From positions 167,693-231,692 of the forward strand of contig NZ_LT800494.1 of NCBI RefSeq assembly GCF_900166665.1: 64,000 nucleotides of DNA, in the 5' to 3' direction. Made by a program: the position numbers and the translations under genes. The notes beneath the pieces were generated by a model, which saw only the letters and a list, made by a program, of their open reading frames with translations, was not told the origin of the DNA and made no database searches. Below are positions 9,223-60,329 of this stretch, piece after piece (position 1 is the first letter of the stretch; the number at the start of each line of letters is the position of its first letter). Origin of the DNA: Cytobacillus gottheilii (GTDB lineage Bacteria; Bacillota; Bacilli; Bacillales; Cytobacillaceae).

Positions 9223-10131
9223 TTAAGCGTAATTATTCGCGATTTCAAGTAAATAACGATGGAAATTTTCAGCATATGATGTTGGTTCGATAATGGTTAG
9301 ATTCGTACCGAAGCCTGCTAAAAATTGAAAACCTATGTGATTTTGAGGGACTCGAATGGTAGCTATAAGGCGCTGAGATTGATCCACCTCAATACTCTTT
9401 CGGCCGTACCTTTCTATGAAATGATCTGCAATATTAGATGAAATGATCGCCTTTATAGATATTTGCTGATCTTGATAATTCATATGAACTTGCTCTGGTG
9501 CTTGTTCCCTGGGATTAAAAGCTTGGTCTCCTATAGCGAGATTGTCGATTCTAGATAATTTAAACGTTCGATAATCCTGCCGCTGTAGACAAAACCCCTT
9601 CAAATACCAGCTGCTTTCGCTAAAATGAAGCTGATACGGCTCGACCGTTCGAATGGTGCTAAGACCATTCTTATCTATATAGTCAAAAGTGATCAACTTA
9701 TGTTCTGCTATTGATTTTTGGCATGTCTTTGAGATTTTTGAGACTTCAGATCGGCCTTCCCACTTATAAAAAGATAAATGGATTGAATTTTGCTTCGCCA
9801 ATGGATTAACCATCGCTTCCATCTTTTTAATAGTAAGTTCCACTTCCTCGCTCATAAAAATCTGTTCCAATCCGCCAAGCGCAATCAATATATTTTCTAA
9901 GTCAGAGGTATTTAAGAGTCTTTTATCAACCTTGTATTCTTCCATGATCCCATAGCCGCCATTTACTCCGTGAACCGAGTAGATCGGAATGTTTGATAGG
10001 CTCAATGTTTCCATATCACGAAGAATCGTTCTTTTGGAGACGTTAAAAAGCTGTGAAAATTCTCTTGTGGAAACAACATCCTTTTTCAGCAAGATCATAA
10101 TAATCGTTATTAAGCGCTCAATTTTCCCCAT
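9223..10131 (-). CDS. YafY-type transcriptional regulator, HTH plus WYL domain
   Basis: The 302-residue protein begins with a winged helix-turn-helix of the DeoR/HTH_11 type (residues 1-60: VSTREFSQLFNVSKRTILRDMETL). A WYL domain at about 135-215 includes DYIDKNGLSTIRTVEPYQLHF and the SWYLKGFC strand. A WCX-like extension ends the protein. WYL regulators sense small ligands or nucleic acids and often repress a neighbouring gene. It is divergent from the VOC protein gene 96 bp away, so that gene is the likely target. AAGGTG lies just upstream of its ATG. Confidence 0.85.
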   Translation of the reverse strand: MGKIERLITIIMILLKKDVVSTREFSQLFNVSKRTILRDMETLSLSNIPIYSVHGVNGGYGIMEEYKVDKRLLNTSDLENILIALGGLEQIFMSEEVELTIKKMEAMVNPLAKQNSIHLSFYKWEGRSEVSKISKTCQKSIAEHKLITFDYIDKNGLSTIRTVEPYQLHFSESSWYLKGFCLQRQDYRTFKLSRIDNLAIGDQAFNPREQAPEQVHMNYQDQQISIKAIISSNIADHFIERYGRKSIEVDQSQRLIATIRVPQNHIGFQFLAGFGTNLTIIEPTSYAENFHRYLLEIANNYA

Positions 10132-55642: not shown

Positions 55643-56539
55643 TTAATGGTTTTTTTCCACCGCATGCCCGCCGAATTCATTTCTCAGGGCTGCAACGACT
55701 TTTCCAGTGAAAGTATCTGTTTCCTGGGAACGATAGCGCATAAGCAGTGACATCGCAATGACTGGTGTAGCAGTCTGCAGGTCTAAAGCTGTTTCAACTG
55801 TCCATTTGCCTTCTCCAGAAGAGTGCATAATACCTTTAATCTCATCCAGTCTAGCGTCCTTGGAAAAGGCCTGCTGCGTTAATTCCATTAGCCAGGAACG
55901 GATGACGGATCCATTATTGTACACCTTTGCCACCTTTTCATAATCATAGTCAAATTGGCTTTTCTCCAATATTTCAAAGCCTTCTCCAATAGCAGCCATC
56001 ATGCCGTACTCAATGCCATTGTGCACCATTTTTAAGAAATGGCCGCTTCCTGCTTCACCTGCATAAAGGTATCCATTGTCTACCGCTGTATCTTTAAAAA
56101 TCGGCTCCACTATTGTCCATGCTTCCTTATCCCCGCCGACCATATAACAAGCTCCATTTCGGGCACCTTCTATTCCGCCAGAAGTACCGACATCCATAAA
56201 ATGAATACCCTTTTCTCTTAATTGGCTGTATCGGCTCAAGGATTCTTTATAATGAGAATTGCCAGCATCAATGACAATATCTCCTTTATCTAAGTGTGGC
56301 ACAATCTCTTGAATTACAGGATCCACAACAGTGTGGGGAATCATCAGCCAGAGAACACGCGGTTTATTTAAAGCTTGAACAAGATCTCTTAGGTTATCAA
56401 ATCCGTGCGCACCGTAGAGGTTCATTTCTTCTACTGCCATTTTATTCAGATCATAGGCAGCGACCTCATGTTTATGATCAATTAAATTTTGTCCTAATTG
56501 CATGCCCATTTTCCCTAACCCTATTAATCCAACTTTCAT
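55643..56539 (-). CDS. gnd: 6-phosphogluconate dehydrogenase, short form (GntZ/YqeC type)
   Basis: The 298-residue protein is the short form of decarboxylating 6-phosphogluconate dehydrogenase. The Rossmann loop is MKVGLIGLGKMGMQLGQNL, the substrate site DVGTSGGIEGARNG, and the catalytic lysine lies in HFLKMVHNGIEYGMM. It makes ribulose-5-phosphate, CO2 and a reduced nicotinamide. AAGGAGG precedes the ATG. It is 37 bp downstream of zwf in one operon, and ribulose-5-phosphate is the formaldehyde acceptor of the HxlA enzyme encoded nearby. Confidence 0.92.
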   Translation of the reverse strand: MKVGLIGLGKMGMQLGQNLIDHKHEVAAYDLNKMAVEEMNLYGAHGFDNLRDLVQALNKPRVLWLMIPHTVVDPVIQEIVPHLDKGDIVIDAGNSHYKESLSRYSQLREKGIHFMDVGTSGGIEGARNGACYMVGGDKEAWTIVEPIFKDTAVDNGYLYAGEAGSGHFLKMVHNGIEYGMMAAIGEGFEILEKSQFDYDYEKVAKVYNNGSVIRSWLMELTQQAFSKDARLDEIKGIMHSSGEGKWTVETALDLQTATPVIAMSLLMRYRSQETDTFTGKVVAALRNEFGGHAVEKNH

Positions 56540-56576: not shown

Positions 56577-58028
56577 TTACCACCATTTATGCCCAAATTC
56601 ATCTAACAGCTTTTGAGCAGCATGGGGTCCCATTGATCCGGATGTGTAGAGGTGCAGCGGAACAAGATCTTCTTCAAATGCTTCCAGGATCGGTTCAACC
56701 CATTTCCAGGAGCTCTCAACTTCCTCCCAATGAGCAAAAAAGGTAGGATCTCCACTGAGAGCATCAAAGAGCAATCGTTCATAGGCTTCTGGCAAATCGC
56801 GCTGACTGGCAGAGAAATGCACATTAATAGGCTCAATCTTTCCACTCATGAGACTTTTGCTATTTAACTGCAGCGAAACGCCTTCGTTTGGAAAAATGCT
56901 AATTGTTAATAGGTTTGGTTTTATGTTTTCTATCTCAAAAGAATCCAGATCACTGGAATTTCTGAATTCAACAACAATCTTAGTTGTTTTTTCCTGCATT
57001 CGTTTCCCTGTTCGAATATAAAAAGGTACACCCTTCCAGTAAGGATGATCGATCCATACGCGGGCAGCGATAAAAGTATCATTTTTGGATTGGGCTTGAA
57101 CGCCTGTTTCTTCGCTATAGGAAACAACGGGCTGTCCCTTTATTTCACCTGAGAGATATTGTCCTCTTACTATTTGTGCTTTGGCATCCTCTTTAGTTAA
57201 TGGTCTTATTGATTCCATTACCTCTCTTTTCCCATTCCGGATATCATAAGCACTCTTTTTCTCAGGGATGCGCATAGCCGTCATCATAAGCAGCTGGAGC
57301 AGATGGTTTTGAACCATATCACGAATGGCTCCAGTATGATCATAATAGTCCGCTCGATTTTCTACTCCTACCGTTTCGCTGGCTGTTATTTGGACATTCG
57401 AGATAAACTGATTGTTCCAAATGGCTTTTAACAGTGGATTGGCAAGCACGAAAGCCTCCAAGTTTTGTACCATTGGTTTTCCGAGATAATGGTCGATTCG
57501 AAAGATTTCCTCTTCCTCAAAGGTTCTGCTCAGTTTTTCATTTAGGGCTTGTGCAGAATATACATCATGGCCAAATGGCTTCTCTATGATTAATCGCTTC
57601 CAGCCATTGGTGGTACCTAAGCCACTTCTCTTAATATTTAAAGCAATGACATCAAAAAATTGCGGAGCAACTGATAAGTAAAACATTCTATTCTCTGCAA
57701 TTTTTTGTTCTGCTTCATGTTTTTCTGCTAATTTAAGCAATTCCTGATAGCCTTTTGGGTCGGTCACATCTAATTGGCAGTAATGAAATAGTTTAACAAA
57801 CTCCTGTTTTTTGGAAACGTCGTTTAAAAGGTGTCTTGAGAAAGTATAAAGTGAATCTTTTACTTTAGCCTGAAATTCAGCGTCAGTGCAGTTATTTCTT
57901 CCAACCCCTATAACTGAAAAGGATTTCGGTAATTTTTGATCGAGAAATAAGGTGAACAGTGCAGGATAGATTTTTCTTTTTGCTAAATCACCTGTTGCCC
58001 CGAATAAAACAAATGTCATAGAATCCAT
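56577..58028 (-). CDS. zwf: Glucose-6-phosphate 1-dehydrogenase
   Basis: The 483-residue enzyme oxidises glucose-6-phosphate to 6-phosphogluconolactone with NADP. The coenzyme loop is VLFGATGDLAKRKIYPAL, and the active-site motif RIDHYLGKPMVQN carries the catalytic histidine region. Length is normal. AGGG lies upstream of the ATG. With gnd it forms an operon whose promoter region holds the same 27-nt element as the hxlAB promoter, so it may serve formaldehyde oxidation as well as the pentose-phosphate route. Confidence 0.95.
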   Translation of the reverse strand: MDSMTFVLFGATGDLAKRKIYPALFTLFLDQKLPKSFSVIGVGRNNCTDAEFQAKVKDSLYTFSRHLLNDVSKKQEFVKLFHYCQLDVTDPKGYQELLKLAEKHEAEQKIAENRMFYLSVAPQFFDVIALNIKRSGLGTTNGWKRLIIEKPFGHDVYSAQALNEKLSRTFEEEEIFRIDHYLGKPMVQNLEAFVLANPLLKAIWNNQFISNVQITASETVGVENRADYYDHTGAIRDMVQNHLLQLLMMTAMRIPEKKSAYDIRNGKREVMESIRPLTKEDAKAQIVRGQYLSGEIKGQPVVSYSEETGVQAQSKNDTFIAARVWIDHPYWKGVPFYIRTGKRMQEKTTKIVVEFRNSSDLDSFEIENIKPNLLTISIFPNEGVSLQLNSKSLMSGKIEPINVHFSASQRDLPEAYERLLFDALSGDPTFFAHWEEVESSWKWVEPILEAFEEDLVPLHLYTSGSMGPHAAQKLLDEFGHKWW

Positions 58029-58133: not shown

Positions 58134-58186
58134 AGTATATTATGTATAGTTAGCAGGTGAAAGTACGCACTTTCTTTTCATATAGT
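58134..58186 (-). promoter_or_regulatory. zwf promoter with element shared with hxlAB
   Basis: Read on minus, ACTATATG (58186-58179), 4 nt, then GAAAGTGCGTACTTT (58174-58160), then 20 nt, then a TATACT -10 box (58139-58134). The order, spacing and sequence are the same as in front of hxlA at 59011-59063. There is no good -35 box, which suits an activator-dependent promoter. Confidence 0.8.
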
Positions 58187-58228
58187 TACAGCGAAGTATA
58201 ATAGTGAATCAAAAGTAACCATGAAAAA

Positions 58229-58540
58229 GAAGCTGGGACAAAACGAAATTAATCTTTCTAAAACACGAACATTCAATATCCTGGTTTAGGTATTTAAACA
58301 AGTCCGTTCCATTGCACTGCGGACCCCCGCTTTCCGTGGGGAGGAAGCTGAGCCTCCTCGGAGCAAGCTCCTGCGGGGTCTCACCTTTTCCTCTGTTGCC
58401 CACAGGAGTCGAGGGTCCTCCGCTCCATTTCACTCATGTTAATAAAATATATTTTATAATCATAAAAACCGAATGATTAGAAAGATGACTTCCTAACCAT
58501 TCGGTTCTATGGGTTGTGTTAAATACTTATGTCCCAGCCT
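58229..58540 (-). repeat. ~315-bp dispersed repeat, copy C
   Basis: This is an inverted copy of the element at 14951-15266, starting aagctgggaca and ending tgtcccagcctt with intact inverted termini. The core (ctcctgcggggtctcacc, ccacaggagtcgagggtcc) is nearly identical to copy B at 25522. It lies between zwf and hxlR. Confidence 0.87.
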
Positions 58541-58551
58541 TTACTTAAGAT

Positions 58552-58917
58552 TTATTTGGTTGCTGAATGGTCTTCTGATTCTTTTTCCAGGACATCTTCA
58601 ATATAATTTTTGCCCCATTCATACATGGATTCCAAAATGGGCATGAGTCTCTGACCATGTTCTGTTAATGAATATTCCACTTTAGGAGGAACAACAGGAT
58701 ACACCTTACGATGAACAATTAAGTGGTCCTCTAATTCGCGCAATTGATTGACAAGCATTCTCTGAGTAATGCCTGGCATAAGAGACTTTAACTCCCCAAA
58801 TCTCTTCGTCCCCTCTTTGCCTAGATGCCAAAGAATCAACATTTTCCACTTTCCTCCAATAATCGCAAGCGTCAACTCTTTTTCACAGTTAAAATCTCTT
58901 TCTCCAAGATTTGGCAT
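58552..58917 (-). CDS. hxlR: HxlR-type formaldehyde-responsive transcriptional activator
   Basis: The 121-residue winged-helix protein closely matches B. subtilis Hxl[41 protein letters not shown] and [17 protein letters not shown]. With the ATG at 58917 as start, the conserved cysteine and lysine fall at C11 and K13, the same numbers as the formaldehyde-sensing residues of the B. subtilis protein. An earlier GTG at 58926 is too close to the AGGAG site. It diverges from hxlAB and should activate it when formaldehyde is present. Confidence 0.93.
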
Positions 58918-59010
58918 GATGTTCACATCTCCTTTTATTTTAAATGTATGTACATAATTTTTGCCTTGATTACCCTGAAGCCACTTATATCAAACGGTAT
59001 ACTTTTTAGC

Positions 59011-59063
59011 ACTATATGCTTTGAAAGTGCGTACTTTTTCTTTTGATATATGTTCAGTATACT
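59011..59063 (+). promoter_or_regulatory. hxlAB promoter with HxlR-type element
   Basis: ACTATATG (59011-59018), 4 nt, then the palindrome-cored GAAAGTGCGTACTTT (59023-59037), 20 nt, then TATACT (59058-59063). It is the likely HxlR activator site. The same array precedes zwf. No close -35 match is present. Confidence 0.82.
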
Positions 59064-59132
59064 AAGCCGTATATTGATGAGTAAATATTTTTAATTGGAC
59101 TTATCAAAATATTCCAGTAGGAGTGAATGTTC

Positions 59133-59765
59133 ATGAAATTGCAATTAGCATTAGATTTAGTCGATATTCCAGGAGCAATTGAAGTCGTAAAAGAAGTACA
59201 AGATCATGTAGATGTTGTTGAAATTGGTACACCTGTCGTCATCAATGAAGGTCTTAAAGCTGTTAAAGAAGTGAAAGCAGCATTTCCTAATATGACGGTT
59301 CTTGCTGATTTGAAAATCATGGACGCAGCTGGCTATGAAGTGAGTCAAGCATCTGCAGCAGGTGCAGATATTGTAACAATTCTTGGTGCAGCTGAAGATG
59401 AGTCAATTAAAGGGGCAGTAGAAGAAGCAAAGAAACAAGGAAAACAAATTCTTGCTGATATGATCGCAGTGAAGGATGTTGCAGCTCGTGCAAAAGAGCT
59501 TGATGAGCTTGGTGTCGATTATATTTGTGTCCACACAGGCTACGATCTTCAAGCTGTTGGCAAAGACTCTTTCGAAGACCTTGCAACGATAAAAAGTGTT
59601 GTTAAAAATGCGAAAACAGCTGTTGCAGGCGGAATCAAATTAGAGACACTTCCTGATGTTATTAAGCAGCAGCCAGATCTAGTGATCGTAGGCGGAGGCA
59701 TTACAGGAAAAGATGATAAAAAAGCAGTCGCACAAGAAATGCAAAAGCTAATTCAACAAGGATAA
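59133..59765 (+). CDS. hxlA: 3-hexulose-6-phosphate synthase
   Basis: The 210-residue TIM-barrel enzyme condenses formaldehyde with ribulose-5-phosphate. It starts MKLQLALDLVDIPGAIEVV and contains DLKIMDAAGYEVSQA with the metal-binding acids, VDYICVHTGYDLQA and VAGGIKLETLPDVI. I chose the second ATG (59133) over 59127 because AGGAG is then about 10 nt upstream and the length equals B. subtilis HxlA. It is followed by hxlB. Confidence 0.96.
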   Translation: MKLQLALDLVDIPGAIEVVKEVQDHVDVVEIGTPVVINEGLKAVKEVKAAFPNMTVLADLKIMDAAGYEVSQASAAGADIVTILGAAEDESIKGAVEEAKKQGKQILADMIAVKDVAARAKELDELGVDYICVHTGYDLQAVGKDSFEDLATIKSVVKNAKTAVAGGIKLETLPDVIKQQPDLVIVGGGITGKDDKKAVAQEMQKLIQQG

Positions 59766-59771
59766 TTATTG

Positions 59772-60329
59772 ATGAAGACGATTGAATATTTAGCAGAAAT
59801 TGTTCAGGAATTAAGTCAAACGGTTCCTCTAATCTCTGAATCTGAAGCAGACACACTGGTCGAACAGATTTTAAAGTCTAAAAAGGTTTTTGTGGCAGGC
59901 GCAGGCAGATCTGGATTAATGGGAAAATCCTTTGTGATGAGAATGATGCATATGGGCATTGATGCTTATGTAGTGGGTGAAACCGTAACAGCCAATTTGG
60001 AAAAAGGCGATCTATTGATCATTGGTTCGGGTTCAGGTGAAACGAAAACCCTGGTAGCCATTGCCGAAAAAGCCAAAAGCATTGGAGGCACCATTGCAGC
60101 TATTACCATTTCGCCTAACTCAACGATTGGTGAAATAGCAGATATTGTTGTGAAGCTGCCTGGCGTAACAAAGGATCAGGCAGAAGGGGATTATAAAACG
60201 ATTCAGCCAATGGGATCTTTATTTGAGCAAACGATGCTGTTGTTTTACGATGCTCTTATTTTAAGCTTTATGGACAAAAAAGGCTTAGATTCTAACCAAA
60301 TGTATGGCAAGCATGCCAATCTTGAATAA
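59772..60329 (+). CDS. hxlB: 6-phospho-3-hexuloisomerase
   Basis: The 185-residue SIS-domain isomerase converts hexulose-6-phosphate to fructose-6-phosphate, completing formaldehyde fixation. It has VFVAGAGRSGLMGKSFVMRMMHMG in part (AGAGRSGLMGKSF), LIIGSGSGETKTL and YKTIQPMGSLFEQTMLLFYD. A TTG three bases earlier is possible, but the ATG at 59772 gives the B. subtilis length. It lies 6 bp after hxlA. Confidence 0.96.
   Translation: MKTIEYLAEIVQELSQTVPLISESEADTLVEQILKSKKVFVAGAGRSGLMGKSFVMRMMHMGIDAYVVGETVTANLEKGDLLIIGSGSGETKTLVAIAEKAKSIGGTIAAITISPNSTIGEIADIVVKLPGVTKDQAEGDYKTIQPMGSLFEQTMLLFYDALILSFMDKKGLDSNQMYGKHANLE

Follow-up and report, generated by a model that had tools for sequence, protein, structure and literature searches.

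The window, the 64,000-nucleotide stretch of DNA analysed here, places hxlR between the promoters of zwf-gnd and hxlAB and raises the question of whether a single formaldehyde sensor governs both operons. A sequence-only reading had proposed that it does, on the basis of an element common to the two promoters. As judged from sequence comparison, we think it very probable that this element is an HxlR operator of the DUF24 type, through which formaldehyde-activated HxlR would switch on hxlAB together with a dedicated second zwf-gnd, completing a formaldehyde-to-CO2 cycle.

The locus and its two promoters

The gene calls were confirmed with NCBIfam, Pfam and PDB sequences (Table 1); hxlR lies between the zwf and hxlA promoters. 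Window HxlR belongs to the HxlR domain family and possesses the Cys-x-Lys formaldehyde-switch motif, as an orthologue should; in PDB sequence comparison its nearest solved structure is B. subtilis HxlR (7bzd). The genes hxlA, hxlB, zwf and gnd stand together as a dissimilatory RuMP module, with pgi elsewhere in the genome.

Table 1. Genes and predicted regulatory features at the hxl-zwf locus (window positions)
Feature	Position	Strand	Basis
gnd, 6-phosphogluconate dehydrogenase, TIGR00872 type (named NAD-dependent)	55643..56539	-	NCBIfam
zwf, dedicated second glucose-6-phosphate dehydrogenase	56577..58028	-	NCBIfam TIGR00871
zwf-gnd promoter -10 box TATACT, 20 nt past element	58134..58139	-	
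zwf-side operator (predicted), ACTATATG-AAAA-GAAAGTGCGTACTTT	58160..58186	-	sequence read, alignment
zwf operator region, distal part CTATTATACTTCGCTGTA, weakly conserved	58187..58204	-	information content
hxlR, DUF24/HxlR activator; Cys-x-Lys kept (NCEKELTL)	58552..58926	-	Pfam PF01638, PDB sequences
hxlA operator, distal block GGTATACTTTTT (consensus ATAGTATACTTTTT)	58996..59007	+	
hxlA-side operator (predicted), ACTATATG-CTTT-GAAAGTGCGTACTTT	59011..59037	+	sequence read, alignment
hxlAB promoter -10 box TATACT, 20 nt past element	59058..59063	+	
hxlA, 3-hexulose-6-phosphate synthase	59127..59765	+	NCBIfam TIGR03128
hxlB, 6-phospho-3-hexuloisomerase	59769..60329	+	NCBIfam TIGR03127

The description that had been given of the shared element proved exact at both promoters: ACTATATG-N4-GAAAGTGCGTACTTT, then 20 nt, then TATACT, with 23 of the 27 element positions identical. 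The remark that neither promoter has a good -35 box also holds, more clearly at hxlA, since the best candidates at 16–18 nt are TTCACC (4/6) for zwf and TTTTCT (3/6) for hxlA. By information content a G at -28 and a T at -27 from the core are prominent in the zwf and hxlA sets described below; the window zwf promoter has T and A at these positions instead.

A dispersed repeat of ~318 bp (58228–58545) lies between hxlR and the zwf promoter, and the adjacent operator is intact. Of 312 candidate copies genome-wide 40 were scored, which puts the number of long ones at 40 or more. At one related locus (L098) the hxlR-zwf gap is ~280 nt shorter than in the window, which suggests that the repeat is probably absent there.

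Census of the source genome

Across the 4,777,676 bases of the genome there are two exact copies of the 15-mer GAAAGTGCGTACTTT, both at this locus. A genome-wide search with ACTATRTN6AAAGTGCGTACTT gave two places without mismatch, none at one or two mismatches and two at three; the only two perfect matches flank hxlR, and the reversed control pattern found no place in the whole genome. Besides hxlR the genome contains two further clear DUF24 genes, making three, plus OhrR as a marginal match, and one of the two adjoins a 3-mismatch site. Control of the housekeeping zwf of this genome was rejected (best match 7 mismatches). The regulated zwf-gnd is the dedicated second copy, not the housekeeping one. 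For the genome's other hxlA copy (C4:3376118-3376720) 780 nt were read and held no site, the best match having 9 mismatches.

Conservation upstream of zwf

Relatives were collected by a scan with the window Zwf, the best 80 of the 90 found being taken as named loci, and site presence was scored over 600 nt upstream of zwf at no more than two mismatches. Among these best 80 of 90 the fetched flanks contain hxlA or hxlB at 42 loci, and the site precedes zwf at 33 of them; it does so at all six loci with hxlR only and at just one of 32 with neither hxl genes nor hxlR (33/42 vs 1/32, Fisher, 1.4e-11). The controls were empty: none of 30 housekeeping zwf genes (43–46% identical to window Zwf) has the site, the best match showing 5 mismatches, nor does any of 400 sequences made by mononucleotide shuffling of 600-nt pieces of these loci. 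When sites with up to three mismatches are admitted, 43 zwf genes bear one, and 35 of these are followed by gnd within 450 nt.

Nine hxl-linked zwf genes lack a site at this stringency. Three (L142, L151 and L163) have it with 3 mismatches, and six of the 42 have none within 600 nt. In two of the six (L130 and L174) the core lies ~1.4–1.6 kb upstream of zwf, with an iron-containing alcohol dehydrogenase gene between core and zwf in L174; in another two (L143 and L146) zwf-gnd stands directly behind an hxlA which itself carries the core. In L149 zwf lies behind hxlAB and no core was found before hxlA, while for L145 no explaining arrangement was found. The zwf of L113 is preceded by a site, and its fetched flanks contain no hxl gene; L119, scored among the unlinked loci, has one with 2 mismatches that begins just past the 600 nt.

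The window's family set comprises 121 genomes. Here all 18 placeable zwf within 3 kb of hxlA among the matches listed (16 from the pattern search and two from separate upstream scoring) have the site in between, as has a nineteenth at a contig end in G009. Nine second-copy zwf away from hxlA among the matches listed were read without a site (best 7–8 mismatches), G001:C141 and G084:C73 being outside the set read. Three sites count against a simple rule of proximity to hxlA: a perfect one before zwf on G006:C116, a contig without hxlA among the matches listed; a perfect one ~600 nt upstream of zwf and ~13 kb from hxlA (G110:C1:417469); and a 3-mismatch one before a second-copy zwf away from hxlA (G113:C14). 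On G113:C14 two short hxlA-like fragments, possibly a decayed hxlA, lie beside hxlR and near that zwf (L221:1679-1835).

In a tree built from 85 Zwf proteins (the 80 relatives, that of the window and four housekeeping enzymes) the site label is clustered, with 9 changes against a shuffled mean of 28.4. The linkage contrast on starred branches yielded three independent pairs (sign test, median p 0.5), too few for significance; with only three, much of the link between site and hxl genes goes back to shared descent. Constraint on the sequence and the fixed spacing carry the argument, rather than a large number of independent gains.

Several hxl-zwf-gnd clusters (L100-L103, L107-L111 and L176) occur at nearly equal coordinates across differently named genera (Robertmurraya, Cytobacillus, Paenibacillus, Oceanobacillus and Bacillus), the Zwf proteins being identical within several sets; this may reflect either horizontal transfer or contamination. 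In L100 a 65-aa ORF with CxxC pairs (9707-9904, + strand) lies in the long leader between operator and zwf.

Promoter geometry

Dereplication at 80% over 92 nt left 25 zwf and 22 hxlA promoters, which were aligned on the 12-nt core alone, the best -10 box being sought at gaps of 8 to 35 nt. Though nothing else was anchored, ACTATATG (ACTAT) and TATACT come into register. The gap between core and -10 box is 21 nt in 22/25 zwf and 19/22 hxlA promoters (21 counted from AAGTGCGTACTT equals 20 counted from ...ACTTT), and TATACT itself is present in 22/25 and 12/22, respectively. Most of the spacer has drifted in the 25 zwf promoters, which are less than 80% alike, and the core, ACTAT and TATACT keep both sequence and distance. 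The sequence-only reading had named absence of the element from orthologous regions as a refutation; this check did not refute it, element and -10 distance being kept at the promoters of both hxl-linked zwf and hxlA. The records that conserve the element include Bacillus and relatives, Geobacillus/Anoxybacillus, Paenibacillus and others; since it is kept across many relatives of Bacillus, one formaldehyde sensor very likely controls both operons.

The core is asymmetric (GTGCGTAC). Its 89 sites at no more than one mismatch (either strand, 80 loci) point toward hxlA in 40 cases and toward zwf in 33, the rest facing other reference genes (2), other ORFs (8) or no called ORF (6). Promoters of hxlA have the distal block in addition, centred ~31 bp (close to three turns of the helix) from the middle of the core, and part of this block is also kept in zwf promoters. 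With the -10 box taken as -12 to -7, the centre of AAGTGCGTACTT would lie at about -39.5, a position which together with the poor -35 would fit a class II activator.

Identity of the regulator

The element is conserved in the hxlR-hxlA intergenic region, and its distribution follows both genes: it is found in 54/54 family genomes with an hxlA of at least 280 bits vs 22/67 others, and in 32/32 class genomes with HxlR at E<1e-53 vs 79/267 others. The same layout precedes hxlA in a genome with an HxlR that matches the B. subtilis protein at 95% identity over 109 residues; compared by eye, the site there departs from the pattern at 3 of the 20 fixed bases, and the core to -10 gap is 21. Two 25-bp HxlR-binding regions, BRH1 and BRH2, were reportedly described by Yurimoto in 2005. 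Cys-x-Lys is present in 77 of the 78 HxlR matches checked (L098-L177 and L236-L265, the B. methanolicus fusion being outside this set); the single exception, in L157, is half of a tandem fusion. That formaldehyde activates HxlR, through a Cys-Lys switch at Cys11, is described in passages of PMC7835342.

A DUF24 gene lies within the fetched ~1.5 kb of the site in 48 of 58 fetched site-centred loci, 29 of these genes at 60% or more and 19 at less than 60% identity to window HxlR, which makes the core an operator of the DUF24 family in general. A core unique to HxlR was rejected, as DUF24 paralogues also adjoin it, and their near-identical cores make cross-regulation possible. It also counts against the HxlR reading that a site is present in 22 of the 67 family genomes that have no strong hxlA. 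Position, conservation and the census of its own genome point to HxlR as the probable regulator here. The element, its geometry, its conservation and its links to hxl and HxlR-family genes are established directly.

HxlR-like promoter architecture was also seen at L118:7723-8580 (-), L281:12583-13446 (+), L282:10340-11332 (+), L271:7156-7674 (+) and L286:7894-8613 (+). The genes behind such promoters include a CN hydrolase, an acrylyl-CoA reductase relative, a DJ-1/PfpI protein, an SDR oxidoreductase and others.

Alternative explanations

One might accept a DUF24 operator and still place zwf-gnd mainly under a DUF24 paralogue, or under HxlR and a paralogue jointly. Many paralogues do adjoin near-identical cores, and the source genome has two candidates, one of them with its own 3-mismatch site. 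This reading is nevertheless improbable in our view, for the only two perfect sites of the genome flank hxlR and across the family the sites follow the hxl genes. 

An old promoter duplication in the hxl cluster, leaving an element copy at zwf that now has no regulatory role, would explain why the two promoters are close, alike in build and mostly co-inherited. It sits badly with the constancy of core, ACTAT and TATACT, in sequence as in distance, across 25 zwf promoters that are less than 80% alike and have drifted over most of the spacer, and with sites before zwf genes not beside hxlA (L113, L157, G006:C116 and, ~5 kb away, L115); we give it very little credence. Hardly any remains for coincidence, or for an element of another kind (a repressor site or attenuator, for example). 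Chance was rejected by the shuffled stretches (0/400) and the housekeeping zwf genes (0/30), and while binding of a repressor is conceivable, the core being nearly palindromic, a site at the -35 position of a promoter with a poor -35 would rather fit an activator.

Bacillus methanolicus and tandem HxlR proteins

Each of three genomes from the Bacillus methanolicus genus (G004, G029 and G046) has exactly four sites at no more than two mismatches, before hxlA, zwf, rpe and glpX; in G029 and G046 the hxlA and zwf sites were assigned by coordinates. The rpe and glpX sites fall on contigs of 18–20 kb (L266:7486-14277; L269, 5440 and 14957; L270, 1685 and 12478). On the 20-kb contig of B. methanolicus PB1 (G004) are rpe and, all on one strand, glpX, fba, tkt and a pfk that is shortened; upstream is a gene for an iron-type alcohol dehydrogenase, which we read as mdh.

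The HxlR matches of PB1 at E<=1e-35 all belong to a single ORF of 226 aa, a tandem fusion of two HxlR domains, neither half of which has the sensing cysteine. Tandem ORFs of this kind were noted at L268:3426-4106 (+), L299:5713-6372 (-), L298:351-1049 (+) and L157:2336-2998 (-). That of G390 is divergent from hxlAB and has no sensing cysteine in either half; those of G236 and of L157, a Paenibacillus abyssi record whose zwf has a perfect site, keep the cysteine in the second half.

We put at even chances the broader proposal that the HxlR-type operator is a common RuMP switch in Bacillales. To it a dedicated zwf-gnd would have been added in species that detoxify formaldehyde, making the formaldehyde-burning cycle complete, and in B. 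methanolicus it would serve hxlAB, zwf, rpe and glpX-fba-tkt-pfk through the cysteine-less tandem HxlR, acting constitutively or reading another signal.

Proposed mechanism

Formaldehyde-activated HxlR would bind the near-palindrome AAGTGCGTACTT as a dimer, would also contact ACTATRT and the AGTATACTTTTT block farther upstream, and would recruit RNA polymerase to promoters with poor -35 boxes, thereby switching on hxlAB and the second zwf-gnd together. HxlAB would then convert formaldehyde and Ru5P via Hu6P to F6P, Pgi (its gene elsewhere in the genome) F6P to G6P, and Zwf and Gnd G6P via 6PG to Ru5P and CO2. This closed cycle would be the cyclic dissimilatory RuMP route, in which formaldehyde is oxidised and the acceptor regenerated. 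Binding by the window HxlR, its contacts, the direction of the effect, the formaldehyde signal at zwf and the flux through the cycle are what we infer. The earlier claim that zwf-gnd is under HxlR along with hxlAB is thus supported by the conserved element and spacing at hxl-linked zwf and hxlA, and is refined in two respects: it would concern the second zwf-gnd copy, and the core is of the general DUF24 type.

Comparison with known systems

If this is true, HxlR would no longer be a one-operon regulator but the head of a regulon that closes a formaldehyde-oxidising cycle, in bacteria not known as methylotrophs. It would also provide a testable candidate regulator of the RuMP genes of B. methanolicus, a methylotroph used in methanol-based production. 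Control of zwf by HxlR was not found in the literature searched, from which many subscription papers were absent.

The closest known system is HxlR-hxlAB of B. subtilis, a formaldehyde-inducible RuMP operon with a DUF24 activator. The window shares with it the HxlR orthologue, Cys-x-Lys, hxlR divergent from hxlAB and, through the genome with the 95% identical HxlR, the operator layout; it differs in adding zwf-gnd as a second putative target. Sections of PMC8879981 list Hps-Phi as the only target of HxlR, and a passage of PMC11577753 names HxlR for hps-phi in B. subtilis.

Hps, Phi, Zwf and Gnd are likewise common to the window and the cyclic dissimilatory RuMP pathway of methylotrophs (B. methanolicus, Methylobacillus). 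The difference lies in the hxl cluster having dedicated zwf-gnd copies of its own in a Cytobacillus gottheilii-like bacterium, not known as a methylotroph. One passage of PMC8879981 has the cyclic dissimilatory route active only in RuMP methylotrophs; elsewhere in the text consulted and in Table 2 it is also given to B. subtilis, and the table gives it to B. cepacia as well. Flux through zwf in B. methanolicus is reported in PMC7511216. AdhR-adhA/yraA of B. subtilis is, according to a passage of PMC11577753, another formaldehyde detoxification regulon; unlike the system proposed here it has a MerR-family regulator and a thiol-dependent dehydrogenase.
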